Shown here: positions 34,577 through 61,515 of the stretch, piece by piece
Numbering within the stretch: position 1 is the stretch's first letter
How the letters are laid out: each line of letters begins with the position of its first letter
NCBI RefSeq assembly: GCF_003544895.1
Contig: NZ_CP032125.1
Location: forward strand, 3,052,001-3,116,000
Reading direction: 5' to 3'
Length of the DNA stretch: 64,000 nucleotides
Source of the DNA: Profundibacter amoris
Lineage (GTDB): Bacteria > Pseudomonadota > Alphaproteobacteria > Rhodobacterales > Rhodobacteraceae
The notes under the pieces: model-generated
Database searches by the model: none
Seen by the model: the letters and a program-made list of their open reading frames with translations, nothing else
Told to the model about the DNA's origin: nothing
Position numbers and translations under genes: made by a program

Positions 34577-36457
34577 CTATTGGGCAATTTCCTGTTGATA
34601 GTGATGATATCCCTCGACGCGGGTTGCGATCAGTTGGCGCAACCGGATTTCATCGCCTTCATCAATCGAGGCCCTGATTTCCCGGATCATAGCAGCCACT
34701 TCGATCTGGGACAGCTTCGCCTCTTCGGCCCGCAGGATTTTCGGGTGCGGCGTCAGGCACAGGCTGTCGCTGTCGATCAGCAGTTCCTCGTATAGTTTTT
34801 CACCCGGCCGCAATCCGGTAATTTTGATTTCGATGTCGCCCTGACCGGTTTGCGGATCAAACACATACCGGCCCGACAGGGTGATCAACTGGCGGGCGAT
34901 ATCAATAATCTTGCGGGGTTTGCCCATGTCCAGCACGAAGACGTCCCCGCCTTCGACATAGGCCCCCGCCAGCAACACCAGACGTGCGGCTTCGGGTATT
35001 GTCATGAAATAGCGGGTGACTTCGGGATGGGTCACGGTAACCGGCCCGCCCATTTCAATCTGTTTTTGAAACAACGGCAACACCGAGCCGGACGAGCCTA
35101 AAACATTGCCGAACCTGACCATGGAAAATTTGGTCGCCGAATGGCGGATCTGGATATCCTGCACCACAAGTTCGGCCATCCGTTTGGTGGCCCCCATGAC
35201 ATTCGTGGGCCGCACGGCTTTGTCCGTCGAGACCAGAATGAAACGTTCGATCTGCGCCTGCGCGGCGGCTTCGGCAACGATCTGGGTGCCAAGGACATTG
35301 TTTCGCGCCCCTTCCAGTTCGTTGCTTTCGACAAGCGGGACATGTTTATAAGCAGCGGCATGAACGATGATTTCAACGCCTTCGTCCGCAACAACATTCG
35401 ACACACGCGGTGCATTTGTAACAGAGCCTAGATAGGCAGACACTTCGATTCCGGCGTGATTTGCCTTGGGGCGTAGTTCCTGATCAATCGAATACAGCTG
35501 GAATTCACCCTGTTCGAACAATACAATCCGCGCCGGATTACAGCTGACAAGTTGCCGGCAAAGCTCGGACCCGATTGATCCGCCGGCCCCCGTTACCATC
35601 ACGACACGCCCGGCATATGTTTTGGCAATTTCCGGCGTGTCCAGATCAACTTTGTCGCGCCCCAGCAATTCGTCCGGGGTAACCGGCCGCAGGTCTTCGA
35701 TGATCGCATTACCAGCCATCATATCAACATATGAGGGCAATACATGCACCTCGACACCCAATCCTGTGAGCTTGGAAATGATGTCCTTCTGGCGTTCTTT
35801 TTCGACCGACGGCATAGCAACCAGAATACGCCCGACCCGGTGCTTGTTGATCAGTTTCTCCATATCGGAAGGCGCACAAACAGGTAGCCCTGCAACCATC
35901 AAGCCATGCAAATTTGAATTGTCGTCAATAAATGCGACTGGTCTGGCTTCTTTTGACTGGCGAAGGGCCGACGCCAACTGGATACCGGCGGAACCACCGC
36001 CGTATATCAACACATGCTGCCGCCCCCCTGCGCGATCAGACAAGTACGTGATAACATACAATCCCAATACCCGCATCAGGACCGAAGCAACAAAGAACAG
36101 CATTCCAAAAATCAACGGGACAGAACGCGAGCCGGATAGTTGCAATAAGTAGCTAACAGCCATTGCGGTGACCGAAAGCGATACCGCCGCCAACCCAACC
36201 TGCAACATGGCGCGGGTTTCAAAGGCATTCAGCTTGATCTTTGGAAGATTGAAAAAATAGATAATTGCACCGCCAAATACCGTCATCAGGACGAAAAGCT
36301 CCCACGATTCCATGACCATAGGAAATGGTGTGGCCGTTCCATATCTAAGCGCAAATGCCGTATAAAGAGAGATGGGGATAAGCAGGATGTCTGCTGTCAG
36401 GAACACCATACGTTTCGCAGAGCGAGACATATTCAACAGATTGTCGAGCAAAAACAT
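34577..36457 (-). CDS. Membrane-bound nucleotide-sugar 4,6-dehydratase (CapD/WbpM/PglF-like)
   Basis: 626 residues from ATG 36457, chosen because AAAGG lies 8-12 bases upstream; the open frame to 36514 crosses operator palindromes. Four N-terminal membrane helices, a first Rossmann region (VLIYGGGSAGIQLASAL), then the catalytic SDR domain with VTGAGGSIGSELCRQL and the STDKAVRPTNVMGATKRMAEL active-site stretch (Met in place of Tyr, Met-x3-Lys). These enzymes convert UDP-GlcNAc to the UDP-4-keto-6-deoxy sugar used for QuiNAc, bacillosamine and similar residues. A downstream SDR at 41602 could complete UDP-QuiNAc synthesis (inference). Confidence 0.92.
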   Translation of the reverse strand: MFLLDNLLNMSRSAKRMVFLTADILLIPISLYTAFALRYGTATPFPMVMESWELFVLMTVFGGAIIYFFNLPKIKLNAFETRAMLQVGLAAVSLSVTAMAVSYLLQLSGSRSVPLIFGMLFFVASVLMRVLGLYVITYLSDRAGGRQHVLIYGGGSAGIQLASALRQSKEARPVAFIDDNSNLHGLMVAGLPVCAPSDMEKLINKHRVGRILVAMPSVEKERQKDIISKLTGLGVEVHVLPSYVDMMAGNAIIEDLRPVTPDELLGRDKVDLDTPEIAKTYAGRVVMVTGAGGSIGSELCRQLVSCNPARIVLFEQGEFQLYSIDQELRPKANHAGIEVSAYLGSVTNAPRVSNVVADEGVEIIVHAAAYKHVPLVESNELEGARNNVLGTQIVAEAAAQAQIERFILVSTDKAVRPTNVMGATKRMAELVVQDIQIRHSATKFSMVRFGNVLGSSGSVLPLFQKQIEMGGPVTVTHPEVTRYFMTIPEAARLVLLAGAYVEGGDVFVLDMGKPRKIIDIARQLITLSGRYVFDPQTGQGDIEIKITGLRPGEKLYEELLIDSDSLCLTPHPKILRAEEAKLSQIEVAAMIREIRASIDEGDEIRLRQLIATRVEGYHHYQQEIAQ

Positions 36458-36732
36458 ATACACTACCTTTTCATATGTGCACATATTGCTGTGCACACAT
36501 TGGCCCCACTTCACAAAACCGCCCTACCCCTTACAACTAACCCATTCGATTTAGCTTGAATAGAGAAAAATCTACACAGGCAAGGTAACGAATAGTAAGC
36601 CGCCAAATAACACAGCAAAGTTCAAATGCGACCCTAGGTATATCGCTATGACAGGCATACAGGATTTGTTACATTGACCTTGAATAACAGGTATGCAAAG
36701 CAGTCATCCGGTCCCGGAGTAATGAGCATTTC
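36458..36732. promoter_or_regulatory. Divergent promoter region between the CapD-like and Wzc-like genes
   Basis: 275 bases of AT-rich sequence between two divergent capsule genes, with no credible ORF. It must carry both promoters. Two TGTGCACA palindromes (next entry) are close to the CapD-like start. No clear -35/-10 pair could be assigned by eye. Confidence 0.55.
36476..36497. promoter_or_regulatory. Tandem TGTGCACA palindromes upstream of the CapD-like gene
   Basis: TGTGCACA at 36476-36483 and again at 36490-36497, 14 bases start to start. The first is extended to a 14-bp perfect palindrome, ATATGTGCACATAT. They lie 19-40 bases before the chosen start of 34577-36457. Two equal palindromes with fixed spacing look like a regulator binding site. 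Confidence 0.6.
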
Positions 36733-38868
36733 ATGAATACAGCACGTATGAACCTACCAGTATCTTCTTTGGATTCACAGGCCTCGCCCGAGAGCGAGAT
36801 TGATCTCATGCTGCTTTTTCGCACGTTATGGCGGGGCAAAATCTGGATCATTCTAGCGACGGTTATCGCCATATTGATTGGCGGTTATTATGCCTATTCA
36901 ATTGCAACGCCCTTATACACAACACGGGCTGTAGTTATGCTGGAAAACCGGCAGGAACAGGTGGTCGATATCGAGAGTGTCATGACCGGCCTTTCCGGCG
37001 ATCAGGCGACTGTAAATACCGAAGTTGAAGTCATCCGTTCCCGAGGGTTGCTGGAAAAGCTTGTTCTGAAACTTGACCTGCTGAATGACCCCGAATACAA
37101 CACAGAACTACAGCCGGAACCCATCATCTCGGTCACTAAAATTGTCAATTTTTCCAGAGGGTTGATGGGTCTACCCCCAAAGGAAAAAAAACAGCTTAGC
37201 GAGCGCGACATTCTGGATGCGACGATTGATGAATTGTTGAAAAAACTGTCGGTATCCAATATCCGGCAAAGTTATGTTTTCAATATTGTTGCAACCTCGG
37301 AAGACCCCGAGAAAGCCGCATTGATTGCCAACACCCTTGGCGAACTCTACATCCGTGATCAGCTTGAGGTGAAATTCGACGCAACAGCGCAGGCAACCGA
37401 GTGGCTAACCGAGCGGGTTACCCAATTGCAAGTGGAACTGGAAGATGCCGAGTCCGCGGTTAAGGAATTTGTCTCGAATACGGATCTGGTCGGGCCGGAA
37501 TCTCTGGATGCTTTGAACCGGCAACTTAAGGATTTGCGGGAAAGGATGCTGAAAACCAAAGCCACGCAGATCGTTGCACAAAAGCAGGCGGATCATTTGC
37601 GCGCATTGGCCGAATCTGGCGAATTTGAGGAAATTGTCAAACAGACCAATGACCCGACTTTGCGTCGGCTGTTTCTTGCGCAGGGCAATGCAAATGACGG
37701 CAGTTCGAAAGCCTTTCAAGCGCGGTTGGAAAATGTATTGCAAAATACCGATCAGAAAAACGCACAGATGATCAATCAGATCAACGCCCTTAGCCAGTCG
37801 ATCGACAGCCTGCAAATCCAGATCGAAAGCCAATCAAAGGACCTTGTCCAGCTCCAGCAATTGCAACGGGAAGCCGAGGCCAGCCGCCTGATCTATGAAT
37901 ATTTCCTTAGCCGGATGAAAGAAACAAGCGTCCAGCAGGGCATTCAGCAAGCGGACAGTCGTGTTCTTTCATATGCTGTGGTTCCGTTAAGGCCCGCATC
38001 GCCGCGCAAGGCAATCATTCTGTTCCTGTCAGCGATCATGGGAATGATTTTCGGGTCGGGAATGGTGCTGCTGAAAGAATACGCGCAGAATACTTTCCGC
38101 ACGCCCGAAGACCTTGAGCACCTGTCCGGCGCAACTGTGATGGGTCAAATCCCGATCATTCCGGCCAGAAACCGGAAAAAAGTTCTGAAATATCTGACCG
38201 ATAAACCGACCTCGGCAGCCGCAGAAGCGATCCGAAACCTGAGGACTTCAATACTGCTGTCCAACGTCGACAAACCGCCCAAGATCATTATGTCAACTTC
38301 CTCGATCCCCGGGGAAGGGAAAACAACGCAGTCCCTTGCTTTGGCTCAAAACCTGTCAGGCCTCGGGAAAAAGGTGCTGCTGGTTGAAGGGGATATTCGT
38401 CGCCGAACCTTCGCGGAGTATTTCGACATCAAAGATAAACAGGGGTTGTTGGCCGTGCTGTCCGGCGAGGCCAAGCTGGAAGATGTTGCCATTTTCAACG
38501 AGTATCTGAAGGCCGATATCCTTATCGGAGAGAAATCCGCCATCAATGCGGCCGATGTTTTTTCCTCGGACAGGTTTCATAAATTTCTGGATGATCTGCG
38601 CAAGAAATACGATTACGTCATTATCGATACTCCGCCGGTTCTTGCCGTGCCAGATGCCCGCGTTATCGGTCAATCGGTTGATGCCATCCTTTACACGGTG
38701 AAATGGGACAGCACCACACGCCGTCAGGTTTCCGAGGGGCTGAAGTCGCTCAGAAGCGTTGGCGCGGCTGTGACGGGACTGGTTTTGGCGCAGATAAACA
38801 AGCGCGGCATGAAGCGTTATGGCTATGGTGACAGCTATGGGGCTTATGGCGATTATTATGACAACTGA
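36733..38868 (+). CDS. Wzc-like polysaccharide co-polymerase and tyrosine autokinase
   Basis: 711 residues. Wzz domain with first helix at about 36-57 and second near 420-445 (IILFLSAIMGMIFGSGMVLL), a long periplasmic coiled coil between, then the cytoplasmic BY-kinase: Walker A SSIPGEGKTTQSL, Walker A' VLLVEGDIRRR, Walker B YVIIDTPPVLAVPDA. Tyr-rich tail KRYGYGDSYGAYGDYYDN (six Tyr) for autophosphorylation. It controls chain length and export through the Wza-like channel at 29704. The A' motif has EGD where most kinases have DAD or DxD, a small oddity. No Wzb-type phosphatase gene follows. Confidence 0.94.
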   Translation: MNTARMNLPVSSLDSQASPESEIDLMLLFRTLWRGKIWIILATVIAILIGGYYAYSIATPLYTTRAVVMLENRQEQVVDIESVMTGLSGDQATVNTEVEVIRSRGLLEKLVLKLDLLNDPEYNTELQPEPIISVTKIVNFSRGLMGLPPKEKKQLSERDILDATIDELLKKLSVSNIRQSYVFNIVATSEDPEKAALIANTLGELYIRDQLEVKFDATAQATEWLTERVTQLQVELEDAESAVKEFVSNTDLVGPESLDALNRQLKDLRERMLKTKATQIVAQKQADHLRALAESGEFEEIVKQTNDPTLRRLFLAQGNANDGSSKAFQARLENVLQNTDQKNAQMINQINALSQSIDSLQIQIESQSKDLVQLQQLQREAEASRLIYEYFLSRMKETSVQQGIQQADSRVLSYAVVPLRPASPRKAIILFLSAIMGMIFGSGMVLLKEYAQNTFRTPEDLEHLSGATVMGQIPIIPARNRKKVLKYLTDKPTSAAAEAIRNLRTSILLSNVDKPPKIIMSTSSIPGEGKTTQSLALAQNLSGLGKKVLLVEGDIRRRTFAEYFDIKDKQGLLAVLSGEAKLEDVAIFNEYLKADILIGEKSAINAADVFSSDRFHKFLDDLRKKYDYVIIDTPPVLAVPDARVIGQSVDAILYTVKWDSTTRRQVSEGLKSLRSVGAAVTGLVLAQINKRGMKRYGYGDSYGAYGDYYDN

Positions 38869-42510: not shown

Positions 42511-42572
42511 ACTACCCCCTGAACTGATCACGTCTGCCTTCCACCCTGTATCAACAATAAACAGTGCCCGCC

Positions 42573-43811
42573 ATGCAAATTGCATTCGTATCGCAATACT
42601 TTCACCCCGAGCCGTTCTCGAATTCAGAGATCGCACAGGCGATGCAGCAACGCGGGCATGATGTCGAGGTGTTAACAGCGGTGCCCAACTATCCGGCGGG
42701 CGAATTCTATGATGGCTATTCCAACAAACAAAAGCGCCGCGAAATCTGGAAGGGTATAGGTATCCGGCGGGTGTTCACTTTGCCGCGCAAATCCGGCGCT
42801 TTACGGTTGATTCTGAATTATTTCACATTCGCCATCACGGCAAGCTGGGCGGCGCGGTTCGGGCGTTGGAAAAAACCGGATGTGGTATTTGTCAGCCAGT
42901 TGTCACCTGTTTTGATGGGACTGCCCGCCATCATACTGGCACGGCGCTACAAGGTGCCGTTGGTTTTGTGGGTTCAGGACATCTGGCCGGAAAGCGCCAC
43001 CTTTACCCTTGGTTTGAAAAACCCGCTGCTGGTTAAGCCCCTGCACTGGATGTCCGGCTGGATTTACCGGCGGGCTGATCACATACTGGTGCAAAGCGCG
43101 GCTTTCCCGCCGATGATCACCCGTTTTGGCATTCCCGAATCCAAAATCCGCATCTTTCCAAACACCGCACCGGATTGCTATTTTCCGGTTGACCCGAAAG
43201 ATGCCAAAGACAAGGCGCGACTGGTGCCGCAGACAGGTTTTCGCATTATGTTTGCGGGAAACATCGGCGAAAGCCAGGATTTCGATACCATTCTGGACAC
43301 TGCAAAAGCATTGCAAGCAGATACGGACGTTCAGTGGGTCATTATCGGTTCAGGGCGCGATTTATCCCGCGTTCAGGAACGGGTTGCCAATGAGGGTCTG
43401 ATCGACGTGTTCCATTTTCCGGGGCGCCACCCGCAAGAGGAAATGTCGGCATTCTTTGCCCATGCCGATGCCATGCTGGTCAGCCTTAAGGATACCCCGA
43501 TTTTTTCCCTGACGGTTCCTTATAAAATTCAAAGTTATATGGCCTGCGGCAAGCCTATCATCGCATCGCTTGATGGCGAAGGTGCACGGATTGTTGGCAA
43601 AGCAAAGGCCGGCGTTGTGTCCCCGGCCTGCAATCCGAAAGCACTGGAAACGGCAATCCGCGACATGCTGGGAAAAACAGATCTGGAGCGCAAACAGATG
43701 GGCCAGAATTCGCTGCACTACTTTCAACAGCACTATGCCTCTGACATGTTATACGACCGGCTGGCGCAATGGCTGCAAAAGGCCGCTGATTCCTGTGAAC
43801 CCCTGAAATAG
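42573..43811 (+). CDS. GT4 glycosyltransferase, WbuB-like (FucNAc transferase candidate)
   Basis: 412 residues from ATG 42573 (a GTG at 42564 is possible). GT-B fold: N-terminal MQIAFVSQYFHPEPFSNSEIAQAMQQRGHDVEVLTAVPNYP in sections, the ELLWV-type VLWVQDIWPESA motif and C-terminal VPYKIQSYMACGKPIIAS...GEGARIV donor site. The PNYPxGxxYxGY and DIWPES signatures are those of WbuB, the transferase next to the fnl genes in E. coli O26, which fits the CapEFG set downstream. Transfer of L-FucNAc is therefore likely but inferred. Confidence 0.88.
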   Translation: MQIAFVSQYFHPEPFSNSEIAQAMQQRGHDVEVLTAVPNYPAGEFYDGYSNKQKRREIWKGIGIRRVFTLPRKSGALRLILNYFTFAITASWAARFGRWKKPDVVFVSQLSPVLMGLPAIILARRYKVPLVLWVQDIWPESATFTLGLKNPLLVKPLHWMSGWIYRRADHILVQSAAFPPMITRFGIPESKIRIFPNTAPDCYFPVDPKDAKDKARLVPQTGFRIMFAGNIGESQDFDTILDTAKALQADTDVQWVIIGSGRDLSRVQERVANEGLIDVFHFPGRHPQEEMSAFFAHADAMLVSLKDTPIFSLTVPYKIQSYMACGKPIIASLDGEGARIVGKAKAGVVSPACNPKALETAIRDMLGKTDLERKQMGQNSLHYFQQHYASDMLYDRLAQWLQKAADSCEPLK

Positions 43812-44046: not shown

Positions 44047-44541
44047 ATGGCCTTGAAACCTCCTGAATTTGTTTTCGTCCACAGCTATTCCAGTACGGCT
44101 GATAACTGGCATGATGTCATGCTGGGCAAAAACGGCGTGGATGGCCGGATTGGCAAAGCGCAAAAACTGGCCGATGAATATTCCATCCCCCTGATTGCTA
44201 ATGACATAGCCGATGCCCGAAACAGGAAACTCTATCGGGACTTGGGTATTACCAACCTTGCAACCGCCAGAAACACCCGCGATGAAGTGGTTTCCGCCCT
44301 TAAGGCAAGCGTGGATGGCGCGGTTCTGTTTGTCACATCACCTGATCATTTGCCCCGCGTTGTGCGCGATGTGATGGCAGAAAACGGTGTTCGCTGCCTT
44401 TTTGCCGCATCCGATATTTCTTTTTCCCCGTCTGGTGCAAAAGGTGTAAATGTCATTGAACCGGCACACGAAAAATATCCGGTTCATAATATACGCGACA
44501 GTCAAAGCCCCACAGAACCCGACAAAATAGCGTCCAGATAA
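44047..44541 (+). CDS. Unknown small protein with weak YdcF/DUF218-like features
   Basis: 164 residues, no signal peptide or membrane helix. A Rossmann-like alternation is visible; the strand-helix stretch ARNTRDEVVSALKA... VLFVTSPDHLPRVVRDVMAENG resembles the DUF218 (YdcF/SanA/ElyC) core, where a VTS/VTN-x-x-H-x-x-R pattern is typical, but the usual signal-anchored start is absent and the protein is short. It begins the FucNAc gene run and lies 13 bases before the CapE-like gene. A role in sugar-nucleotide or lipid-carrier handling is only a guess. Confidence 0.62.
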   Translation: MALKPPEFVFVHSYSSTADNWHDVMLGKNGVDGRIGKAQKLADEYSIPLIANDIADARNRKLYRDLGITNLATARNTRDEVVSALKASVDGAVLFVTSPDHLPRVVRDVMAENGVRCLFAASDISFSPSGAKGVNVIEPAHEKYPVHNIRDSQSPTEPDKIASR

Positions 44542-44554: not shown

Positions 44555-45598
44555 ATGAGCACCCGTAATCGCGATATTAAATGCGCCCTGATCACCGGCG
44601 GGACCGGATCGTTTGGCAAAACCATGCTGCGTGACCTGCTGGATCAGGGAACCCCCGAGGTCCGGATCATCAGCCGTGACGAGGAAAAACAGGATGCCTT
44701 GCGCAATGTTTTGCGTGACGAACGGGTCCGTTACTATATCGGCGATATCCGCGACAGGGAAAGTCTGGATCGCGCCATGCACGGGGTCGAATGTGTGTTC
44801 CACGCGGCCGCCCTGAAACAGGTTCCCAGTTGCGAGTTTTTTCCGCACGAAGCGGTGCGCACAAACATCCTTGGCTCGGAAAATGTGATCCGGTCGGGCA
44901 TTGCGGCAGGTGTGCGCAACATCGTCTGCCTGTCAACCGACAAGGCCGTTTTTCCGGTCAATGCCATGGGCATGTCAAAGGCCCTGATGGAAAAAACCGC
45001 ACAGGCCGCGGCGCGGGAACTGGGAAATATGGCCAAGACCACGATTGCCTGTGTGCGTTATGGCAATGTCATGTATTCCCGTGGCTCGGCCATCCCGCTG
45101 TTTGTGCGCCAGATCAAGGAAGGCAAACCGATCACTGTTACCGAACCCAGCATGACCCGTTTCCTGATGCCGTTGCGCGACAGTGTTTCTCTGGTGAACC
45201 ATGCCTTTAGCCATGCACGGCAAGGGGATTTGTTCATCAAAAAGGCGCCTGCCTCGACCATTGTCGATCTGGTGGCAGCGCTTAAGGAACTGTTTGAGGT
45301 GCCGGATCACCCTGTGGAAATCATCGGCTGGCGCCATGCCGAAAAGCTGTATGAAACACTGGCCAGTGCACAGGAACTGATGACCAGCGAGGACATGGGC
45401 GAATACTATCGCATCCTGCCCGACCAGCGCGATCTGAACTACAAGAAATTCTTTAGCGAAGGGGACACGCAGACGGTCGAGCAAGACGATTACCATTCGC
45501 ACAACACCGATCAGCTGGATGTCGAGGGTGTAAAAACCCTGTTGCGCACCCTGCCGGAAATTCAGACCGAGCTTGCGGCCTGGAAAGGCGGCGCATGA
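44555..45598 (+). CDS. UDP-GlcNAc 4,6-dehydratase/5-epimerase (CapE/FnlA/WbjB)
   Basis: 347 residues. First enzyme of UDP-N-acetyl-L-fucosamine synthesis: dehydrates UDP-GlcNAc and inverts C5. Nucleotide loop ITGGTGSFGKTM (13-24); active-site LSTDKAVFPVNAMGMSK (126-142) with Met138 in place of Tyr and Lys142, as in CapE. Also HAAALKQVPSCEFFPHEAVRTNILGSENV and the C-terminal WRHAEKLYETLASAQEL. Followed by CapF- and CapG-like genes with 4-base overlaps, giving the full three-step set. Length matches CapE (about 340). Confidence 0.93.
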   Translation: MSTRNRDIKCALITGGTGSFGKTMLRDLLDQGTPEVRIISRDEEKQDALRNVLRDERVRYYIGDIRDRESLDRAMHGVECVFHAAALKQVPSCEFFPHEAVRTNILGSENVIRSGIAAGVRNIVCLSTDKAVFPVNAMGMSKALMEKTAQAAARELGNMAKTTIACVRYGNVMYSRGSAIPLFVRQIKEGKPITVTEPSMTRFLMPLRDSVSLVNHAFSHARQGDLFIKKAPASTIVDLVAALKELFEVPDHPVEIIGWRHAEKLYETLASAQELMTSEDMGEYYRILPDQRDLNYKKFFSEGDTQTVEQDDYHSHNTDQLDVEGVKTLLRTLPEIQTELAAWKGGA

Positions 45599-46719
45599 TA
45601 CGGGTTGTCGTAACAGGCGCGGCAGGGTTGATCGGCTGGCACGCCTGCGCGCGCCTGCACGCCGAAAACTGTGCGGCCGGTTTCAAAGGAAATCCAAACC
45701 CCTATGACATTATACCGCTGGACCACGCCGGATTTGACGACGATACCCAATTGCAAAACGCACTTGCCGGTGCCGATGCGGTGTTGCATTTCGCCGGTGT
45801 GAACCGCGCAGCCGATGACGTGGTAGAAGCCGCCAATCCGGCCATTGCCGAACGGATGATCGCGGCTTGTCAGGCGGTGGATGCGAAGCCCCATATCGTA
45901 TATGCAAATTCGACCCACGCGGGGTCGGACACCCCCTATGGGCGCTCGAAAAAACGGGCTGCCGAAATTCTGGCGCAAAGTAGCCGCGCGTTTACCGATC
46001 TGGTTTTGCCGCACATTTTTGGCGAAACCGCACGCCCGTTCTACAACAACGTCACCGCGACCCTGATCCACCAGTTGGTCAACAACAAAACGCCCGAGGT
46101 CAATCCCGATGGCAAGGTGCAACTGCTCCATGCAGGCGTGGCGGCGCAAACGGCTATTGATGCTGTCATCAACCGCACCACCGGCCAGATAACCCCTACC
46201 CCGCAACCCATGACCATTCCGGCGCTGCTGGCAAAATTGCAGGGGTTCCATGACAGCTATCAGGCCAATATCTATCCCGATCTGACGGATGCATTTGATC
46301 TGGCCCTGTTCAACACTTACCGCGCGGCGACCTATCCTGACGGCTGGCCCCGCCCGCTGAAACTGAACACCGACAGCCGCGGCACCCTGTTTGAAGCCGT
46401 CAAAGGCGGCGGCGGCGGACAGGTGTTTTTGTCAACCACCAAACCGGGCGTCACCCGTGGCGACCATTTCCACCTGAACAAGGTCGAGCGGTTTTTGGTG
46501 ATACAGGGCGACGCCATGGTCAGAGTGCGCAAGGTGCTGGACAATACCGTTTGGGAATACCGCGTTTGCGGCGACGCCCCTGCACCGGTCGACATGCCGA
46601 CCCTGCACACCCATTCGATCGAAAACATCGGCAAGGGCGATCTGTTGACCCTGTTCTGGACCCATGATCTGTTTGATCCGGCCAATCCCGACACCTATGC
46701 AGACAAGGTTTTACCATGA
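45595..46719 (+). CDS. CapF/FnlB/WbjC-like reductase-epimerase with cupin domain
   Basis: 374 residues. Second step of UDP-L-FucNAc synthesis: epimerises C3 and reduces C4. N-terminal SDR half (VVVTGAAGLIGWHACARL, HFAGVNRA, TPYGRSKKRAAE with YGRSK) and a C-terminal cupin half with metal ligands in GVTRGDHFHLNKVERFLVIQGDAMVRVRK and the later PTLHTHSIENIG. This fusion is unique to CapF and relatives. Overlaps the flanking genes by 4 bases each. Confidence 0.95.
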   Translation: MIRVVVTGAAGLIGWHACARLHAENCAAGFKGNPNPYDIIPLDHAGFDDDTQLQNALAGADAVLHFAGVNRAADDVVEAANPAIAERMIAACQAVDAKPHIVYANSTHAGSDTPYGRSKKRAAEILAQSSRAFTDLVLPHIFGETARPFYNNVTATLIHQLVNNKTPEVNPDGKVQLLHAGVAAQTAIDAVINRTTGQITPTPQPMTIPALLAKLQGFHDSYQANIYPDLTDAFDLALFNTYRAATYPDGWPRPLKLNTDSRGTLFEAVKGGGGGQVFLSTTKPGVTRGDHFHLNKVERFLVIQGDAMVRVRKVLDNTVWEYRVCGDAPAPVDMPTLHTHSIENIGKGDLLTLFWTHDLFDPANPDTYADKVLP

Positions 46720-47876
46720 GCAAATCAAACAAACTGAAGGTCATGACGATCCTTGGCACCCGCCCCGAAATCATCCGGCTGTCACGGGTCATGGACCGGC
46801 TGGACCGCTATTGCGACCATATCATCGTGCATACGGGGCAGAACTGGGATTACGAGCTGAACGAAGTGTTCTTTGAAGATCTGGGCGTGCGCAAACCCGA
46901 CCATTTTCTGGGGGTTGGCGGTGGCAGCCTTGGGGAAACGCTGGGCGGTATTTTGCAGAAAACCGAACAGGTGCTGGAACAGGAAAAGCCCGACGCGGTG
47001 GTGATCCTTGGCGATACCAATTCGGCCATTTCCGCGATCATGGCGCGGCGTCTGAAAATTCCGGTCTATCACATGGAGGCCGGCAACCGGTCATTCGACC
47101 GCAACGTGCCCGAAGAAACCAACCGCCGTCTGGTGGACCACATCGCCGATTTCAATCTGGTCTATACCGAACACGCCCGCCGGCACCTGTTGGCCGAAGG
47201 GCTGGAACACCGGCGGATCACCCTGACCGGCAGCCCGATGCGCGAAGTTCTGGAACATTACCGCGACAGGATCGAGGCATCGGACATTCTGGCAAAGCTG
47301 GAACTGGAGCGTGGCAAATATTTCATCGTATCCCTGCACCGCGAGGAAAATGTAGACAACGCCGCAAGGCTGACATCACTGGTGGAAACCCTGAACGCGC
47401 TGGCGGATCAATACGCATTTCCCGTTATCGTTTCGACCCACCCGCGCACCCGCAAACGGCTGGACGCGCTGGGCTTGTCGCTTCATCCGCTGGTCAAGGA
47501 TGCAAAACCGTTCGGGTTTCATGATTACAACCATCTGCAAATGAACGCGTTTTGTGCCGTGTCCGACAGTGGCACGATTGCCGAAGAGGCCTCGATCCTC
47601 GGCTTTCCCGCGATCACCCCGCGAGATGCCATTGAACGTCCCGAAGCGCTGGATGTGGGATGTATCATCATGACAGGGCTGGATCGTGATACGATGCTGG
47701 ACAGCATCGCCGCTATCACCTGCAGCTTTGCGGCGCGCGAACAATCCGGCCAACCCCACCCCGTTCCAGCCGATTACTGCATCACCAACACATCGGAACG
47801 GGTGGTCAACCTGCTGCTGGGCACCGCACGTCTGTCAAACCGGTGGGACGGCATTCGCGATAACCGAACCGAATGA
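46716..47876 (+). CDS. UDP-N-acetylglucosamine 2-epimerase family (CapG/FnlC/WbjD)
   Basis: 386 residues. Third step: epimerises C2 to give UDP-L-FucNAc. Non-hydrolysing 2-epimerase motifs: TILGTRPEIIRLSRVM, HTGQNWDYELNEVFF, HMEAGNRSFDRNVPEETNRR and VSDSGTIAEEASILGFPAI. The N-terminal GTRPEI and the EAGNR form, rather than EAGLR of WecB, agree with CapG. Completes the CapEFG set. Confidence 0.95.
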   Translation: MSKSNKLKVMTILGTRPEIIRLSRVMDRLDRYCDHIIVHTGQNWDYELNEVFFEDLGVRKPDHFLGVGGGSLGETLGGILQKTEQVLEQEKPDAVVILGDTNSAISAIMARRLKIPVYHMEAGNRSFDRNVPEETNRRLVDHIADFNLVYTEHARRHLLAEGLEHRRITLTGSPMREVLEHYRDRIEASDILAKLELERGKYFIVSLHREENVDNAARLTSLVETLNALADQYAFPVIVSTHPRTRKRLDALGLSLHPLVKDAKPFGFHDYNHLQMNAFCAVSDSGTIAEEASILGFPAITPRDAIERPEALDVGCIIMTGLDRDTMLDSIAAITCSFAAREQSGQPHPVPADYCITNTSERVVNLLLGTARLSNRWDGIRDNRTE

Positions 47877-49027
47877 CCGCCCCGCAAAAGATCATCTGCT
47901 TTTTGTTCGACCCCAACATCGGCGGGCCGACGATCCGTGCGCGCAGCGTTTATCAGCAGATGATGGCGCAGGGTTTCGACATCCGCGTGGCCTTTCCCAA
48001 AGGCGAAGGAACCGCCGCCGCTTATCTGGCCGAAAAGCACATACCGGTTGATCAACTGGCCATTTCCAAACCGGTCATGCCCCGCAAAGTGGGTGCTTTC
48101 CTAAAGTTCGCCCTCGGCTCTCCGCTGGCCCTGTTCCGGGTTGTTCGCTATCTGCGGCGGGAAAAGCCGGATGTCATTCATGTGAACGGCGCCTTTGATA
48201 CCCTTCCCGCCATCGCCGGGCGGCTGGCAGGGGTTCCGGTTGTCTGGCATCTGAATGATACGGTTTTCGGCCCCCGATTGTCCGGCATATTGGGGCGATT
48301 GGTGCGGCTGGTTGCCAGTGAAATTGTCATTGCCGCCACCCGCGTCGGGGAACATTATGGTGTCATGGGGGCCAATCCACGCGTGATCTTTGCGCCGGTG
48401 GATGTGCACCGCTTCAAGGCGCGGGACACCGGCAAAGTGCCGGGCCAGAACCCAAAGCTGACGCTTGTCGGTAACTGGAACTGGATCAAGGGGCATGATC
48501 GTTTCATTGATGTTTTACTGGACCTGAAACAACAGGGCATAGCGACCCGCGGCATTGCCGCCGGTGGTTTTCTGGACGGGCAACGCGCCTATTGGGAACC
48601 CCTGCTGGACCGGATCAAAACCAATGGGCTGACCGACAGTTTCAAGGCCCCCGGCTTTGTCAAAGACACCGTTGGTCTGCTGACCGGTAGCGATCTGCTG
48701 CTGCTGACCTCGCATTCCGAGGCCAGCCCGATGTCGTTGCTGGAAGCAATGTCCATCGGCCTGCCGGTGGTCAGTTTCGATGTTGGCGGGGCAAAGGAAA
48801 TGCTGGGACAGGGGGATGGCGCGGCTGGCATTGTCGTGCCAAACGGCGACACAAAGGCAATGGCAAATGCTGTCGCAACCCTGCTGGATGACACAAACCT
48901 TTATCAACAAATGGCGCAAAACGGCCAACGGCGGGCACGCGACAAATTCTCGCTTGAAACCTGTATAGAACGGCATATAGCGGCCTATGAGGCCGCAGTG
49001 CAAAGCAAGAGTAGGACAGTAAAATGA
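47873..49027 (+). CDS. Glycosyltransferase, GT4 family
   Basis: 384 residues, GT-B fold. N-terminal GGPTIRARSVYQQMMAQGFDI, then HVNGAFDTLPAIAGRLAGVPVVWHLND in pieces, and the C-terminal donor site SHSEASPMSLLEAMSIGLPVVSFDVGGAKEML, with the EX7E-type pattern SEASPMSLLE. Adds one sugar to the lipid-linked repeat unit; which one cannot be read from sequence. Overlaps its neighbours by 4 bases on both sides. Confidence 0.9.
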   Translation: MTAPQKIICFLFDPNIGGPTIRARSVYQQMMAQGFDIRVAFPKGEGTAAAYLAEKHIPVDQLAISKPVMPRKVGAFLKFALGSPLALFRVVRYLRREKPDVIHVNGAFDTLPAIAGRLAGVPVVWHLNDTVFGPRLSGILGRLVRLVASEIVIAATRVGEHYGVMGANPRVIFAPVDVHRFKARDTGKVPGQNPKLTLVGNWNWIKGHDRFIDVLLDLKQQGIATRGIAAGGFLDGQRAYWEPLLDRIKTNGLTDSFKAPGFVKDTVGLLTGSDLLLLTSHSEASPMSLLEAMSIGLPVVSFDVGGAKEMLGQGDGAAGIVVPNGDTKAMANAVATLLDDTNLYQQMAQNGQRRARDKFSLETCIERHIAAYEAAVQSKSRTVK

Positions 49028-49998
49028 AGTGGATTATCACCGGCGGGTGCGGATTTATCGGCCGCGCCCTGATCCGGCACCTGAATTCCGAAGGCGGCCA
49101 CAAGATCAGGGTCTATGACAACCTGAGCGTCGGAACCCGCGATGATCTTGCCGGCGAAGCGCCCTTTGTCGAACTGCCAGATGACAACCTGTCCGACTGG
49201 TCTGCCGATCTGGCCCTGATAAAAGGCGACATTCTGGAGGCCGACCATCTGCGCGCTGCTGCTGCCGGTGCCGATATTCTGATCCATCTGGCCGCAAACA
49301 CCGGCGTTGCCCCCTCGGTCGAGGATCCCTATAGCGACTGCCACACCAATGTCATGGGCACCCTGAATGCGCTCGAGGCCTGCCGCCACGAAAACCTGAA
49401 CCGGATGGTTTTTGCATCCTCCGGCGCGCCGCTCGGGGTTCAGACCCCTCCCTTGCACGAGGAAATGGCCGCGCACCCTGCATCACCCTATGGCGCCTCG
49501 AAACTGGCGGGCGAGGGGTATTGCTCGGCCTATTTTCATTGCTACGGAGTTGAGTCAGTGGTGTTGCGGTTTGGCAATGTTTATGGCGAAGGCTCGACCC
49601 GCAAGGCCTCGGTTGTGGCGAAATTCATCAAGCTGGCGATGGCCGGTGAAACGCTGGAAATCTATGGCGATGGTTCGCAAACCCGCGACTTTATCTATAT
49701 CGGCGATCTGATCCGTGCGGTTTATGCCGCCGCGACCACCCCCGGTGTTGGCGGGGAAACCTTCCAGATTGCCACCTCGGCGGAAACAACCGTGGGCGCG
49801 CTGACCGAACGACTGGTCGCCGCCATCCAAGAGGTCACAGGCATCGAACCAAAGTGGATCAACGGGGAACAAAGGGCCGGTGACGTGGCCCGCAACTTTT
49901 CGGACACCAGCAAAGCGGCGGCCCAATTGAACTGGACGCCAAAGATGGATCTGGACGAAGGGTTGCGCCGCACCGTGCGCTTTTTTGCAGAACAATGA
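49024..49998 (+). CDS. NAD-dependent epimerase/dehydratase (UDP-sugar 4-epimerase-like)
   Basis: 324 residues. Extended SDR: IITGGCGFIGRALIRHL, HLAANTGVAPSVEDPYSD, ASSGAPLGVQ, catalytic YGASK and RFGNVYGEGS. The GGCGFIG start and SSGAP-type variation are like UDP-glucose/GlcNAc 4-epimerases (GalE, WbpP) of polysaccharide loci. It makes one more sugar donor; the exact substrate is not decided. 37 bases before the sulfoquinovose-synthase-like gene. Confidence 0.88.
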   Translation: MKWIITGGCGFIGRALIRHLNSEGGHKIRVYDNLSVGTRDDLAGEAPFVELPDDNLSDWSADLALIKGDILEADHLRAAAAGADILIHLAANTGVAPSVEDPYSDCHTNVMGTLNALEACRHENLNRMVFASSGAPLGVQTPPLHEEMAAHPASPYGASKLAGEGYCSAYFHCYGVESVVLRFGNVYGEGSTRKASVVAKFIKLAMAGETLEIYGDGSQTRDFIYIGDLIRAVYAAATTPGVGGETFQIATSAETTVGALTERLVAAIQEVTGIEPKWINGEQRAGDVARNFSDTSKAAAQLNWTPKMDLDEGLRRTVRFFAEQ

Positions 49999-50035: not shown

Positions 50036-51184
50036 ATGAAAGTTCTTATTCTGGGCGGAGATGGCTATCTGGGATGGCCGACAGCAATGGATTTTGCCGC
50101 TGCCGGGCATGATGTCACCGTTATCGACAATTATCTTCGCCGGATCATCGCCGAGGAAACCGACAGCGAAGCCCTGCTTCCTACCCCGACATTGACACAG
50201 CGGGCGGCGATATTTGCTGCATTGACCGGCAAGAAAATCACCGTGCGTATTGGTGATCTGGCGGACCCGGACATTATGATGGATGTGGTCAGGGATACAG
50301 CCCCCGATACGATCATCCACTATGCCGAACAGCCCTCGGCCCCCTATTCGATGCGCGGGTTCCCCGAGGCGCGCCGCACCTTCAAGAACAATCTGGATGT
50401 TACATTCAACTGCATCTGGGCGATGCTGGAACACGCCCCCAAGGCACATCTGGTCAAGCTGGGTACGATGGGCGAATACGGCACACCCAATATCGACATC
50501 GAAGAAGGCTGGATCGACATTGACCACAAGGGGCGTTCAGGCCGTTTTTTGTTCCCCCGCGCCGCCGGATCGCTTTACCATACAACCAAGGTGCTGGATA
50601 CCGATCTGCTGTGGTTCTATGTGCGCACCTATGGTCTGCGCGTGACAGACCTGATGCAGGGGCCGGTTTACGGGCTGTCGACAGATCAGGCCGATCTGGA
50701 TCCGGCCCTAAGCCCGAATTTCCACTATGACGACATATTCGGAACCGTGGTAAACCGTTTTCTGGTTCAGGCCGTGGCGGATATTCCGCTGACCGTTTAT
50801 GGCGGCGGTGGACAGACCCGTGGCTATCTGAACCTGCGCGACACCCTGCAATGCGTGCGCCTTGCTGCGGATAATCCCGCTGACGAAGGCGAATTGAAGA
50901 TTTTCAACCAGTTGACCGAAACCTTCACCGTCAACGAACTGGCCGACAAGGTGAAAAAAGTGGGGGATGGCATGGGCCTGAATGTCCAGATCAAATCCAT
51001 CCCGAACCCTCGCAAGGAACTGGAAGAGCATTACTATAACCCCGTCCATACCGGCCTGATCGAGATGGGGCTGGAGCCACATTATATGACCGATGATGTG
51101 GTTGCCGCGATGCTGGAACGTATCATCGCCGCAAAAGGCAAGATCGACACAAACCGCATTATGCCAAGGGTAAGCTGGAAATGA
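50036..51184 (+). CDS. UDP-sulfoquinovose synthase-like (SQD1/SqdB family)
   Basis: 382 residues matching the SQD1 family along the whole length. Seen: LGGDGYLGWPTA (start of the NAD fold), LTGKKITVRIGDL, HYAEQPSAPYSM, KLGTMGEYGTPNIDIEEG (Thr144), catalytic Tyr181-x3-Lys185 in YHTTK, YGGGGQTRGYLNLRDT, NQLTETFTVNELA, NPRKELEEHYYNPVHTGLIEMGLEPHY and the ending IMPRVSWK. SQD1 adds sulfite to UDP-glucose to make UDP-sulfoquinovose, normally for sulfolipid. Here the gene sits among polysaccharide genes, with no sqdC/sqdX-type sulfolipid partner nearby, so a sulfonated sugar in the polysaccharide is a real possibility. A different acceptor nucleophile cannot be excluded. Confidence 0.87.
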   Translation: MKVLILGGDGYLGWPTAMDFAAAGHDVTVIDNYLRRIIAEETDSEALLPTPTLTQRAAIFAALTGKKITVRIGDLADPDIMMDVVRDTAPDTIIHYAEQPSAPYSMRGFPEARRTFKNNLDVTFNCIWAMLEHAPKAHLVKLGTMGEYGTPNIDIEEGWIDIDHKGRSGRFLFPRAAGSLYHTTKVLDTDLLWFYVRTYGLRVTDLMQGPVYGLSTDQADLDPALSPNFHYDDIFGTVVNRFLVQAVADIPLTVYGGGGQTRGYLNLRDTLQCVRLAADNPADEGELKIFNQLTETFTVNELADKVKKVGDGMGLNVQIKSIPNPRKELEEHYYNPVHTGLIEMGLEPHYMTDDVVAAMLERIIAAKGKIDTNRIMPRVSWK

Positions 51185-52194
51185 GTATTTGTAAAAACTT
51201 CAAGGGCCGCAGCGTCCTGATCACCGGGGCCTGCGGAACTGTTGGCGCCGAACTGACCCGTCAGGTTCTGGAAGCGGGGGCCGAACGGATCGTTTGTGTC
51301 GACAACAACGAAACCGAGCTTTTCTTTTTGCAGGAAAAATACAAAGCCGGCGGGGCCGTCAAATGCTATCTGGCGGATATCCGTGACCGCGAGGCCCTGA
51401 CACAACGGATGCAGGGGGTCGAAATTGTTCTGCACGCTGCCGCGTTGAAACATGTCGGTCTATGCGAAGACAGCCCCGCGCAAGCTATCCGCACAAATAT
51501 CGAAGGCACACAGAACGTCATTGATGCGGCCCTTGCCAATCGGGTTGAACGGGTGATTTTCACATCGTCCGACAAGGCGGTGAACCCGACCAACGTTATG
51601 GGCACATCCAAACTGATGGGTGAACGGCTGATGACTGCGGCCAGCCTGAACAACCGCAATTGCGAAACGGTTTTCGCCTCGACACGCTTTGGCAATGTGC
51701 TGGGATCACGCGGCTCGGTCGTGCCCCTGTTCAAACGCCAGATCGAATCCGGCGGGCCAGTCACCCTGACCGACCCCAGCATGACCCGTTTCATCATGAC
51801 ACTGGAAGAGGCGGTCAAACTGGTCTTGCAATCCGCCTTTATGGCAACCGGTGGCGAAGTGTTCGTTACCAAAATGCCCGTTGCCCGAATTGAAGATATT
51901 GCATCCCACATGGTGCAGGCATTAAGCGGCGACAACCCCGTCAAGATTACGGAAATCGGCGCCAAACCCGGCGAGAAAATGTACGAAGAACTGATGAACG
52001 ACGAAGAGGTCCGCCGGACATGGGAAACCGGTGATTTCTTTGTTGTGCTGCCCGCGCTGGCCGGAGATTACGAGGAACTCTATCCAATCTCGGTTGGGCG
52101 TCAAAAGGCAGACAGGCCGTATAATTCATCGGTGGAACCGGCAATGACAGCCGATGAGTTGGCCAAGTATTTCACCGAAAAACAAATCCTTTGA
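51181..52194 (+). CDS. Short CapD/PseB-like nucleotide-sugar dehydratase
   Basis: 337 residues, the soluble version of the 4,6-dehydratase family. Motifs: LITGACGTVGAELTRQVLEAGAE, HAAALKHVGLCEDSPAQAIRTNIEGTQNV, SSDKAVNPTNVMGTSKLMGER and GSRGSVVPLFKRQIESGGPVTLTDPSMTRF. No membrane helices. It presumably makes a 4-keto-6-deoxy UDP-HexNAc. Having this along with the CapE-like and long CapD-like enzymes suggests at least two 6-deoxy sugars in the repeat unit. Overlaps the SQD1-like gene by 4 bases. Confidence 0.9.
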   Translation: MSICKNFKGRSVLITGACGTVGAELTRQVLEAGAERIVCVDNNETELFFLQEKYKAGGAVKCYLADIRDREALTQRMQGVEIVLHAAALKHVGLCEDSPAQAIRTNIEGTQNVIDAALANRVERVIFTSSDKAVNPTNVMGTSKLMGERLMTAASLNNRNCETVFASTRFGNVLGSRGSVVPLFKRQIESGGPVTLTDPSMTRFIMTLEEAVKLVLQSAFMATGGEVFVTKMPVARIEDIASHMVQALSGDNPVKITEIGAKPGEKMYEELMNDEEVRRTWETGDFFVVLPALAGDYEELYPISVGRQKADRPYNSSVEPAMTADELAKYFTEKQIL

Positions 52195-52323: not shown

Positions 52324-53592
52324 ATGAAGATTGCCGCCCTACCGATCAGTTTTATCGCGGCCTTTCTTGCACGGGCGGCCGCCGCTTTCGGGGGCCTTGC
52401 CCTGAGTGTGATCATTGCCAGGCTGAATGGTGTTTCCGAAATGGGCGCCTTCGCCTTTGCGTTGTCGGTTTTGCATTTCTCTATGATTTTCTCCCGATAC
52501 GGGTTGGATATGGTGTTGACCCGCACCGTGGCGCGGGGGGCAAAAGGAAACATGCTACCGGTGCTGCACCGGTATCTGAAACGCATAATCACAGCATCGC
52601 TTGTTGTTCTGGTTGCCGTGCTGATCATCGGCAAACTGGCAGGAATTTCCCAAAGCCGTATGGAAGTGCTGCGCCTGCTCATGTTGGGATTGCCGTTTCT
52701 TGTCGGGGTTTCGCTATTTGTCGGGTATCTGAAAGGCGCCGGACACCCCGCGATTGCGGCCCTGTGCGAAACAGGTGGGCTGGCGGGCCTGACCACTGTT
52801 GCCATTGCCCTGATGTATTGGTCCGTCGGGCCGGTTTCGATCATTGCCATTTCTGTTTTATACACAGTGATCTGTTTGATCGTTTTCACGGCGCTATTCT
52901 TTCTGGTGCGCAGAATGGAACGCCACAACACTCCGGAAACTCCTGTGCAACAGGCGCAATCCACCGAAGGTGCAAAGTGGTTCTGGATCGTTGCCAATGC
53001 GGTTTTTCTTAGTCAGGCGGGGGCGTTGGTCATAGGCGGCATGGTTCTAAGTGACATTGATGTCGGCCATCTTCGCCTTGCCGAACGTCTGGGTCTGATG
53101 GCAGGCTTTGCCCTGACCGTCACAGACCCCGTGGTCGCCCGTTTCTTTGCGCGGGATCACGGGAACCGCATATTGCTGAAACGGCATTTCATGCTTGCAT
53201 CGGGGTTCGCCACCCTTTTCGCCCTGACAATTTCCATCATCATAATCTTTTTTAACGACAGATTGCTGGACCTTGTGGGCGGGGATGCCGAAATTGGCCG
53301 CACATTGTTGTATGTTTATCTGGCGGGCAGTGTTTTCAACGCAATGACCGGCACCTCCAGTATGCTTCTTTCCATGACAGGGAACGAAAAATTCCTGATG
53401 CGCACGGTAGTCATGACGTTCCTGCTGGCCATGCCGTCCTATTATTTTGGTGGGCTTGCCGGTGGCGCGATGGGGTTTGCCATCGCCTATCTGTTGATAC
53501 TGGTTCTGAAGAATTCGATCATCTTCTTGCGTGTTCTGCAAATCCTGTCCGGACCTGGGGCGGATATGGACCCCGACCGCAAAAACGGCTAG
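52324..53592 (+). CDS. Wzx-like polysaccharide flippase
   Basis: 422 residues, about 12 membrane helices, MOP-superfamily (polysaccharide transporter). N-terminal SFIAAFLARAAAAFGGLALSVIIARLNGVSEMGAFAFALSV and RYGLDMVLTRTVARG are typical of O-antigen flippases; the pattern repeats in the second half (FMTGTSSMLLSMTGNEKF). Moves the lipid-linked repeat unit to the periplasm. 129 bases after the dehydratase gene and 8 bases before the polymerase gene. Confidence 0.88.
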   Translation: MKIAALPISFIAAFLARAAAAFGGLALSVIIARLNGVSEMGAFAFALSVLHFSMIFSRYGLDMVLTRTVARGAKGNMLPVLHRYLKRIITASLVVLVAVLIIGKLAGISQSRMEVLRLLMLGLPFLVGVSLFVGYLKGAGHPAIAALCETGGLAGLTTVAIALMYWSVGPVSIIAISVLYTVICLIVFTALFFLVRRMERHNTPETPVQQAQSTEGAKWFWIVANAVFLSQAGALVIGGMVLSDIDVGHLRLAERLGLMAGFALTVTDPVVARFFARDHGNRILLKRHFMLASGFATLFALTISIIIIFFNDRLLDLVGGDAEIGRTLLYVYLAGSVFNAMTGTSSMLLSMTGNEKFLMRTVVMTFLLAMPSYYFGGLAGGAMGFAIAYLLILVLKNSIIFLRVLQILSGPGADMDPDRKNG

Positions 53593-53600: not shown

Positions 53601-54953
53601 ATGGAATACCCCGTTGACCATAATTCAGCAGCCCCGCAATCAGGCAAGGGACGCCCCCTTCGCGATCTGACCGTTCTTGCCGTTTTTGCAATAACCTATC
53701 TGGCGCCAATCCTCGTTTCCTTCTTTCTGGAAGGGTCGGCATCATCCAGAACCTATTTCCTGATCCTGACCGTAACGCTGGCGGCATCCTCGGTCTATAT
53801 ACTGTCAAGGGGGGGCATTACGCTGGTGTTCTATTTCCAGCTTTTGTCATTCGCCCTTTTCGCCTACGGGCTTCAGCAGATTATCGGTGCCACTTTTGTT
53901 TTGGGCAACCAGCTTTCGGAAATATCGACAACCGCCTTTTTTGTCTTTTTCCTGCATATCATTTTCTGCATTATCGGGTTTCGTATAACCCGCCGCCCGG
54001 TCCTTCGCCCGCCTGCGAAACAAACCCGAAAACCGAATTTGCTATATGTCTCGGCCGGATGTGCACTGGTTGTCGCTCTGGCCTTTATTATCATCGGGCC
54101 AATGCCGTATCTGTCATCCAGAACCGAAATATATTTGCTTGATAACGGGGCCAATGCGGGGTCAAGCATTCTGGAATACTGGTCAAAGATTGTCTTCTTT
54201 TTTGCCGCGATTGCTTCGCTTCGCACCTCGAACAAATTCAAGGCGCCCCGCCTTGCCACCTGGGTCCTGATCGGGATCGCCATTGCTATTGCCAACCCTG
54301 TCAACACACCGCGCTACATCAGTATTACCGCGCTTATGGTGTTTGGTATGATCTGGCTATTACTAAGCCCGATAAGACGCAATATCCGGCTGGTGGTCGG
54401 GTTGCTTCCCCTATTGCTGGCCGTGGTGCAACCCCTGACATCCCTGATGCGCAGCGGTCTGGAAAACCTGAGCTTTGCAAACGCAATGGGGCTGTATAGC
54501 TCGATCGAGTTTTCAAGCTTTGAGGTTTTCCTGAATACCGTTCGGATCTATCAGGGCAGTTCCGGCATTTCAAACTATTCCCTAAGCGCGATATTCATCT
54601 TTATCCCCCGTTCGATCTGGCCGGGCAAAGCCGAAGGGATCGGAGTTGAAGTGGCCGAGCAAAGCGGTTTTACCTTTCTCAACACCGCCCTGCCTTCGTT
54701 CGCTAATTTCTATGTGGACTACGGGTTTATCGGAATTATCATCGGCAGTCTGATCGTCGGTGCCCTGTTGCGTCGATTTGATCTGCCCAAACTAAACGCC
54801 TTTTCCTTTACCAACCGTCGGCAAATGTATTCCATCATCCTGTTTGCCCTGATCCCGATCTTTGCGCGTGGCGATTTTTCGTCCGTGGCTATCGCCGCCT
54901 ACCCAATGCTATTCGCTTACGAGTATGTCCGGTTTCTGGCGCGCTTGCGTTAA
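53601..54953 (+). CDS. Wzy-like polysaccharide repeat-unit polymerase
   Basis: 450 residues, 10-12 membrane helices, with the large periplasmic loop near residues 310-370 (EVFLNTVRIYQGSSGISNYSLSAIFIFIPRSIWPGKAEGIGVEVAEQSG), as in O-antigen/EPS polymerases (EpsG/WzyE-type). Sequence is divergent, as is usual for Wzy, so the call rests on topology and on its position right after the flippase. Ends 14 bases from the convergent sensor kinase gene. Confidence 0.82.
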   Translation: MEYPVDHNSAAPQSGKGRPLRDLTVLAVFAITYLAPILVSFFLEGSASSRTYFLILTVTLAASSVYILSRGGITLVFYFQLLSFALFAYGLQQIIGATFVLGNQLSEISTTAFFVFFLHIIFCIIGFRITRRPVLRPPAKQTRKPNLLYVSAGCALVVALAFIIIGPMPYLSSRTEIYLLDNGANAGSSILEYWSKIVFFFAAIASLRTSNKFKAPRLATWVLIGIAIAIANPVNTPRYISITALMVFGMIWLLLSPIRRNIRLVVGLLPLLLAVVQPLTSLMRSGLENLSFANAMGLYSSIEFSSFEVFLNTVRIYQGSSGISNYSLSAIFIFIPRSIWPGKAEGIGVEVAEQSGFTFLNTALPSFANFYVDYGFIGIIIGSLIVGALLRRFDLPKLNAFSFTNRRQMYSIILFALIPIFARGDFSSVAIAAYPMLFAYEYVRFLARLR

Positions 54954-59705: not shown

Positions 59706-60343
59706 GGGTTCATCCCCTTCCGGCCATAGGTCGCGCCGGTGTGGCCGCGCGACAGAACAAAGGTGAAGGCGTGCATCAATCGGCTGAACGGGAAGTAGAT
59801 CAGCCAGATATCGACGAACAGCATATGGATGCCGCGCAGCACGTCGTGGCTTTGTTGCAGCGCCAGACAGCCGGTCAGCATGACAAGGAACGTCAGCCAT
59901 GTGCCGATATGGTCATCCCAATCGGAAATCAACCGCATTACAGGGTCCGAAATCCGGCGTACCCACAGCACAATCAAACCCGCAAAGGCAATTTCCGACA
60001 CAAGGATAAAGCCCCAGCGTGGCAGCGGTGTCCACGAAATACCCAGATATTGTTTGATGAAATCAATATGGAACGCGCCAAAGAAAAACAGCACAAACAG
60101 GCCTATATGGAAGGAATAACCACCGATGATATGGATCCAAGTGCGCCGCGCAAACATGCCGCGCGGTATGAAATGGCGCAGGTTTCCTTTGACGAAACCG
60201 GCTGCCGCCGACCCTTTGGGCGGGGAAATATCACGCTTGCGCCCCATACGGATCAGACCGAAAACGCGCCATGCAGCGGCCAGCACAAAAACAGCGGCGG
60301 AAAAATAAAACAGCGGACCCTCGACAAATTGCAGGAACGTCAT
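59702..60343 (-). CDS. NarI/HdrE-like membrane cytochrome b subunit
   Basis: 213 residues, five or six membrane helices. Heme-ligand-like histidines occur in WIHIIGGYSFHIGLF, GAFHIDF, and SHDVLRGIHML with SRLMHAF. Overlaps fdhC (60340) and the CCG protein by 4 bases, so it is translationally coupled to both. It probably exchanges electrons with quinone and hands them to or from the CCG partner. Confidence 0.86.
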   Translation of the reverse strand: MTFLQFVEGPLFYFSAAVFVLAAAWRVFGLIRMGRKRDISPPKGSAAAGFVKGNLRHFIPRGMFARRTWIHIIGGYSFHIGLFVLFFFGAFHIDFIKQYLGISWTPLPRWGFILVSEIAFAGLIVLWVRRISDPVMRLISDWDDHIGTWLTFLVMLTGCLALQQSHDVLRGIHMLFVDIWLIYFPFSRLMHAFTFVLSRGHTGATYGRKGMNP

Positions 60344-61413: not shown

Positions 61414-61515
61414 AGCTATTGACCTTTCTGACAAGGCTACGCGCGCGAAACCTTCGCGTCGCGGGGCAGTGGCGCGCGGCAAACGCGCGCGCCACGTTGT
61501 TTTCAGATCAAAGGA

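Follow-up and report, generated by a model that had tools for sequence, protein, structure and literature searches.

A gene within a polysaccharide locus of Profundibacter amoris probably encodes a sulfite-using synthase of the SQD1 family, which would supply the exopolysaccharide of that locus with an activated C-sulfonate (6-deoxy-6-sulfo) sugar. The gene lies in the 64,000-nucleotide stretch of DNA that was analyzed as a whole (contig NZ_CP032125.1, positions 3,052,001 to 3,116,000), hereafter referred to as the window. The original prediction was a sulfonated sugar in the polysaccharide, made by an SQD1-like enzyme. The sulfonated sugar gained support from the PAPS reductase genes found beside orthologues, whereas a plain SQD1 making sulfoquinovose is argued against by a proline at position 101 and by the partnership with a UDP-GlcNAc-type dehydratase.

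Identification of an SQD1 family member

The open reading frame of the SqdB-like gene is intact. The SQD1 structures 1qrr and 1i24 align to residues 2–382 of its product with an E-value of about 1e-122, which rules out a chance match or an artefact, and the identity to Arabidopsis SQD1 is 47.8%. Thr144, Tyr181 and Lys185 align with Thr145, Tyr182 and Lys186 of SQD1, bearing out the earlier reading of an SQD1 match throughout, with the catalytic Tyr181-x3-Lys185 and Thr144. The homology to UDP-sulfoquinovose synthases is full-length, with the Thr and Tyr-x3-Lys triad and the bound-NAD motif present, and the active-site Thr, Met, Glu, Tyr, His and Lys are retained. The NCBIfam model UDPsulfquin_syn (NF041015) also matched end to end, with 430 bits and an E-value of 7e-129; this score falls below the equivalog cut-off of 575 bits, a value exceeded in just one of 14 control genomes, so that the model appears narrow. 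Judged from its sequence, the protein is a member of the SQD1 family and not a canonical UDP-sulfoquinovose synthase.

Arg101 of SQD1 is replaced by proline in the window protein (EQPSAPYSM vs EQRSAPYSM), a substitution that the original prediction did not mention. The protein thus belongs to the family and yet lacks one of the residues that define the known synthases. In Agl3 of Sulfolobus, activity is abolished by R101A, and also by H95A, M145A, Y182A and K186A (PMC4388408); these other essential residues (H95, M145, Y182 and K186) are retained in the Pro101 proteins. Among 84,980 species genomes scanned, 544 related loci were found; the best 80 (66–97% identical), which come from one archaeal MAG and from about twelve phyla of bacteria, were analyzed. 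Position 101 is proline in 81 of 81 sequences, that is, in the window protein and in these best 80 of the 544 loci. A tree built from 39 sequences recovers the Pro101 proteins as monophyletic (99/88) and needs only one change of state at this position; on this tree they form a clade separate from the sulfolipid enzymes.

As controls, we used the SqdB proteins of three plasmids (L103, L104 and L106) and of four genomes from the organism's own family (L129–L132), all of which are encoded in an sqdB-sqdD-sqdC arrangement. Arg101, the residue of SQD1 itself, is present in all seven, and SqdD lies beside all seven. In the P. amoris genome (3.56 Mb, one contig, rated 100% complete), the window gene is the sole SqdB-family gene, and searches with SqdD and SqdC of Palleronia returned no match, as anticipated by the claim that the gene has no sulfolipid partner; the genome-wide check suggested at that stage for a second sqdB, sqdC or sqdD thus came back with a single SqdB-family gene. 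SqdD was likewise absent within 10 kb at 80 of 80 orthologue loci.

No close orthologue was found in the plasmid collection, where matches were at most 48% identical, or in the phage collection, where they were weak. On one plasmid of Pseudonocardia autotrophica (L105), an SqdB-like gene of the Arg101 type (48% identical) has an MFS transporter, a GT2 glycosyltransferase and a PLP-dependent member of the cysteine synthase family nearby, with no match to SqdD or SqdC.

Organization of the exopolysaccharide locus

The SqdB-like gene is flanked on both sides by glycan genes (Table 1), in the order FnlA-like, WbjC-like, WecB-like, GT4, C2, SqdB-like and C1, with neighbors mostly overlapping by 4 bp. 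It shares 4 bp with the dehydratase gene C1, whose start codon overlaps its stop codon (ATGA at 51181), so that its earlier placement among glycan genes, in overlap with a dehydratase, proved correct. C2 and the SqdB-like gene are 37 bp apart, and the gap contains a GGAG motif. Wzx/Wzy-like genes lie downstream of C1, and Wzc/Wza-like genes and a WbpM/CapD-type dehydratase lie upstream; together these mark a Wzx/Wzy exopolysaccharide locus, with Wzx, Wzy and the glycosyltransferases identified by family search and Wzc and Wza by reading of the sequence. The FnlA-, WbjC- and WecB-like genes look, by their sequences, like a UDP-L-FucNAc pathway, and C1 is therefore an additional dehydratase paralogue, one of three in the locus. 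FnlA was considered as a duplicate of C1 and rejected, as the two separate on the tree.

Table 1. Features of the polysaccharide locus, with positions in the window.
Feature	Position	Strand	Basis or remark
Wza-like polysaccharide export lipoprotein	29704..31044	-	read from sequence
Membrane WbpM/CapD-type UDP-GlcNAc 4,6-dehydratase, third dehydratase paralogue	34577..36514	-	
Wzc-like chain-length determinant / tyrosine kinase	36733..38868	+	read from sequence
GT4 glycosyltransferase (WcaI-like)	42564..43811	+	family search
Uncharacterised 164-aa protein	44047..44541	+	homologues at L025, L029, L032, L035
FnlA-like UDP-GlcNAc 4,6-dehydratase/5-epimerase, paralogue separate from C1	44555..45598	+	family search, tree
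WbjC/FnlB-like reductase, UDP-L-FucNAc pathway	45595..46719	+	NF047837
UDP-GlcNAc 2-epimerase (WecB/FnlC-like), UDP-L-FucNAc pathway	46716..47876	+	TIGR00236 above cut-off
GT4 glycosyltransferase ('GGPxxR' type), candidate transferase	47873..49027	+	overlaps C2 by 4 bp
C2, GalE/epimerase-like SDR, predicted 4-epimerase or 4-keto reductase	49024..49998	+	no dehydratase acid/base pair
SqdB/SQD1-like sulfosugar synthase, Pro101 clade, 382 aa, candidate	50036..51184	+	homology, motifs, tree
C1, soluble predicted UDP-GlcNAc dehydratase, Polysacc_synt_2 family	51181..52194	+	closest solved relative Pen (6bwc), SDK...MxxxK
Wzx-type flippase	52324..53592	+	MatE
Wzy-type polymerase	53601..54953	+	TIGR04370, 37.3 bits, just under cut-off 40

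Two further features of the window were recorded. The family of the uncharacterised protein at 44047–44541 (160–220 aa, no Pfam match) is encoded immediately upstream of the cassette in the four relatives, whereas in the window the upstream distance is about 5 kb. The minus strand at 58416–63989 carries an Fe-S reductase and formate-dehydrogenase-like subunits, as read from the sequence, which are unrelated to the polysaccharide locus.

A conserved cassette with two companion enzymes

C1 adjoins the SqdB-like gene in 66 of the 81 loci, and C2 lies within 2.5 kb of it in 36 of 81, many of the exceptions being loci cut by contig ends. The cassette spans about twelve phyla, and C1 and C2 are arranged around the SqdB-like gene in two alternative orders. 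The best PDB match of C1 is 6bwc, the structure of Pen, a UDP-GlcNAc 5,6-dehydratase (PMC8987622), and in a tree (98/97) C1 clusters with Pen and is separated from FnlA/CapE and FlaA1; the same tree places two long proteins of the WbpM type among the C1 sequences, on a very long branch. The active site of C1 reads SDK...MxxxK and departs from the Pen-type [ST]DK...YxxxK; according to the published motif table, MxxxK is the PglF/WbpM form and Pen has YxxxK (PMC8987622). C2 retains YxxxK and has no dehydratase acid/base pair, and would therefore suit a predicted role as a 4-epimerase or 4-keto reductase.

A single conserved transferase for the cassette was sought and not found, the related GT4 being limited to 16 loci. 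Separately, sulfotransferase genes lie near the cassette at L025, L028, L029, L037, L038, L055, L062, L073, L079, L084 and L093, some of them with CysD/CysN, and sulfate esters may occur alongside sulfonates in these polysaccharides.

A second genomic context was found for more distant Pro101 proteins, encoded on viral contigs and in one genome (G037), which adjoin a UDP-GlcNAc 2-epimerase, a 2-hydroxyacid dehydrogenase, a cytidylyltransferase and NeuB; Arg101-type viral SqdB-like genes lack these NeuB-type neighbors. Loci with SqdB-like genes in this setting are L117, L118, L120, L122, L125, L126 and L127 (viral contigs) together with L128; position 101 is proline wherever it is readable, which excludes the partial L126, and the neighbors named apply to loci uncut by contig ends. 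These genes possibly belong to a sulfonated nonulosonic-acid-like pathway that is partly virus-encoded.

Linkage to a dedicated sulfite source

PAPS reductase produces sulfite. Of the 80 loci, 15 have a PAPS reductase gene (PF01507) no more than about 4 kb away from the SqdB-like gene, against an expected 0.32, an enrichment of about 50-fold; the naive P value of 2e-20 ignores kinship among the loci. Two members of PF01507 were tested, and both scored above the phosphoadenylyl-sulfate reductase cut-off. The loci concerned come from Rhodobacterales, Erythrobacter, Rhodanobacter, Robiginitomaculum, Bacteroidota, Chloroflexota and others, with the gene at several positions, and CysD/CysN are present in some of them as well as in some other loci. 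With the sulfite reductase of the P. amoris genome as the query, no homologue was found near any cassette. Six of the 14 genomes with such a locus contain no sulfite reductase domain (G065–G068, G072 and G073), some of these being MAGs and possibly incomplete, and in another six a second PAPS reductase gene, at a different site, adjoins one for sulfite reductase (G061–G064, G069 and G070). These two sets of genomes identify the cassette's PAPS reductase as a dedicated sulfite source. We regard this linkage as strong indirect evidence that sulfite is the co-substrate.

In P. amoris, the only PAPS reductase adjoins the assimilatory sulfite reductase and none is encoded in the window; the sulfite for the window enzyme would therefore come from assimilation. 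Three relatives (L025, L031 and L035) have proteins 77–79% identical to the window protein, the same gene order and a PAPS reductase within 4 kb, and it is from them that we infer that the window enzyme itself uses sulfite.

Proposed product and alternative explanations

Following the established chemistry of SQD1 and Agl3, a tightly bound NAD+ would oxidise the UDP-sugar at C4, loss of water across C5–C6 would give a 4-keto-5,6-ene, and sulfite would add at C6 before C4 is reduced back; for the window enzyme, the order of these steps is taken over from that scheme. C1 probably shares this sugar as its substrate and might, for instance, provide UDP-6-deoxy-GlcNAc-5,6-ene, and inversion or reduction at C4 is the probable task of C2. 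What most likely results is a sulfonated N-acetylhexosamine donor, which would then be transferred by a local GT4 enzyme, the presumed transferase, and exported via Wzx/Wzy. A sulfonated HexNAc rather than sulfoquinovose is suggested by three observations, namely that characterised members of the C1 family use UDP-GlcNAc, that residue 101 is changed, and that the distant Pro101 proteins, unlike the Arg101-type viral ones, adjoin UDP-GlcNAc 2-epimerase and NeuB. Sulfoquinovose itself is a possible product. Counting against the proposed sulfite-using synthase are Pro101 across the clade, the absence of a PAPS reductase from the window, the 65 of 80 loci that have no adjacent PAPS reductase, the MxxxK of C1 and the WbpM-type long branch among its relatives; in addition, C1 and C2 could make separate sugars.

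The alternative that survives best, although we consider it unlikely, is an ordinary UDP-sulfoquinovose synthase that converts UDP-glucose and sulfite to UDP-sulfoquinovose for the polysaccharide, with C1 and C2 making other sugars or epimerising the product, for instance to 6-sulfofucose. UDP-sulfoquinovose synthase is indeed the best family match, the active-site residues are retained, the PAPS reductase linkage fits, and Agl3 produces UDP-sulfoquinovose for archaeal glycans (PMC4388408). However, the essential Arg101 is proline in all 81 sequences of the clade, the constant companion is a UDP-GlcNAc-type dehydratase, Pro101 relatives adjoin UDP-GlcNAc 2-epimerase and NeuB, and the score lies under the equivalog cut-off.

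A loss of sulfite use through R101P was our initial reading, in which the enzyme would be a plain 5,6-dehydratase or a C4/C5-epimerising SDR for an unusual deoxy or amino sugar without sulfonate. The replacement of Arg101 agrees with this, as do the formation of UDP-glucose-5,6-ene by Agl3 without sulfite (PMC4388408) and the lack of an adjacent PAPS reductase at most loci, including the window. The reading was nevertheless set back by the dedicated PAPS reductases, as an enrichment of about 50-fold, dedicated in 12 genomes, is hard to explain simply without sulfite, and it now appears improbable. A role in sulfolipid (SQDG) synthesis, with the gene placed in a glycan locus by chance, is rejected as extremely improbable even though this is the genome's only SqdB-family member, since SqdD and SqdC (the sole partners searched) have no match in the genome, the gene overlaps glycan genes within an operon, sqdBDC-type SqdB genes all encode Arg101 and fall in another clade, and orthologues in other phyla sit in polysaccharide-type loci.

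Extending the proposed sulfite-using synthase to the family, we tentatively suggest, as an idea that may well not hold, a widespread bacterial pathway to sulfonated (6-deoxy-6-sulfo) HexNAc for surface polysaccharides, in which a Pen-like dehydratase would be followed by the Pro101 enzyme with dedicated sulfite, and a sister viral and alphaproteobacterial branch would lead to a sulfonated nonulosonic-acid-type sugar.

Relation to known systems and significance

Sulfonated sugars in nature are known mainly from sulfolipid and from a few archaeal glycans. SQD1/SqdB of plants, cyanobacteria and alphaproteobacterial sqdBDC operons shares with the window enzyme the fold family, length, NAD site, Thr/Tyr/Lys triad, His183 and Gln209; the window enzyme differs in Pro101, its separate clade, the absence of SqdD/SqdC, its polysaccharide cassette with C1 and C2, and an identity of 38–48%. 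Agl3 of Sulfolobus acidocaldarius, of the same family, directs a sulfonated sugar to a glycan and not to a lipid, as is proposed here, but requires Arg101 (PMC4388408) and serves an archaeal N-glycan; for Agl3, the literature searched describes no cassette of C1, C2 and PAPS reductase. Pen/Pal of Bacillus thuringiensis, in which Pen is the closest solved structure to C1, provides a two-enzyme 5,6-ene route that models the proposed step. It differs from the cassette in having no SqdB-like partner or sulfite, in the YxxxK of Pen versus the MxxxK of C1, and in leading to pseudaminic acid. The 6-C-sulfofucose in the N-glycan of Thermoplasma acidophilum is likewise a sulfonated sugar in a cell-surface glycan, but it is archaeal and not an amino sugar; according to a 2025 paper, how sulfofucose is synthesized had yet to be identified (PMC12421959). 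The literature searched, which was thin on subscription journals, yielded no route to a sulfonated sugar in bacterial polysaccharides, and the novelty is thus provisional.

If the proposal is true, bacterial polysaccharides would count among the sources of C-S sugars, given that the cassette occurs in about twelve phyla. The resulting polymers would be strongly acidic, with a sulfonate resistant to sulfatases, and residue 101 alone is predicted to separate sulfolipid from glycan enzymes. Such polysaccharides would also provide an origin for the sulfosugars that environmental bacteria degrade.
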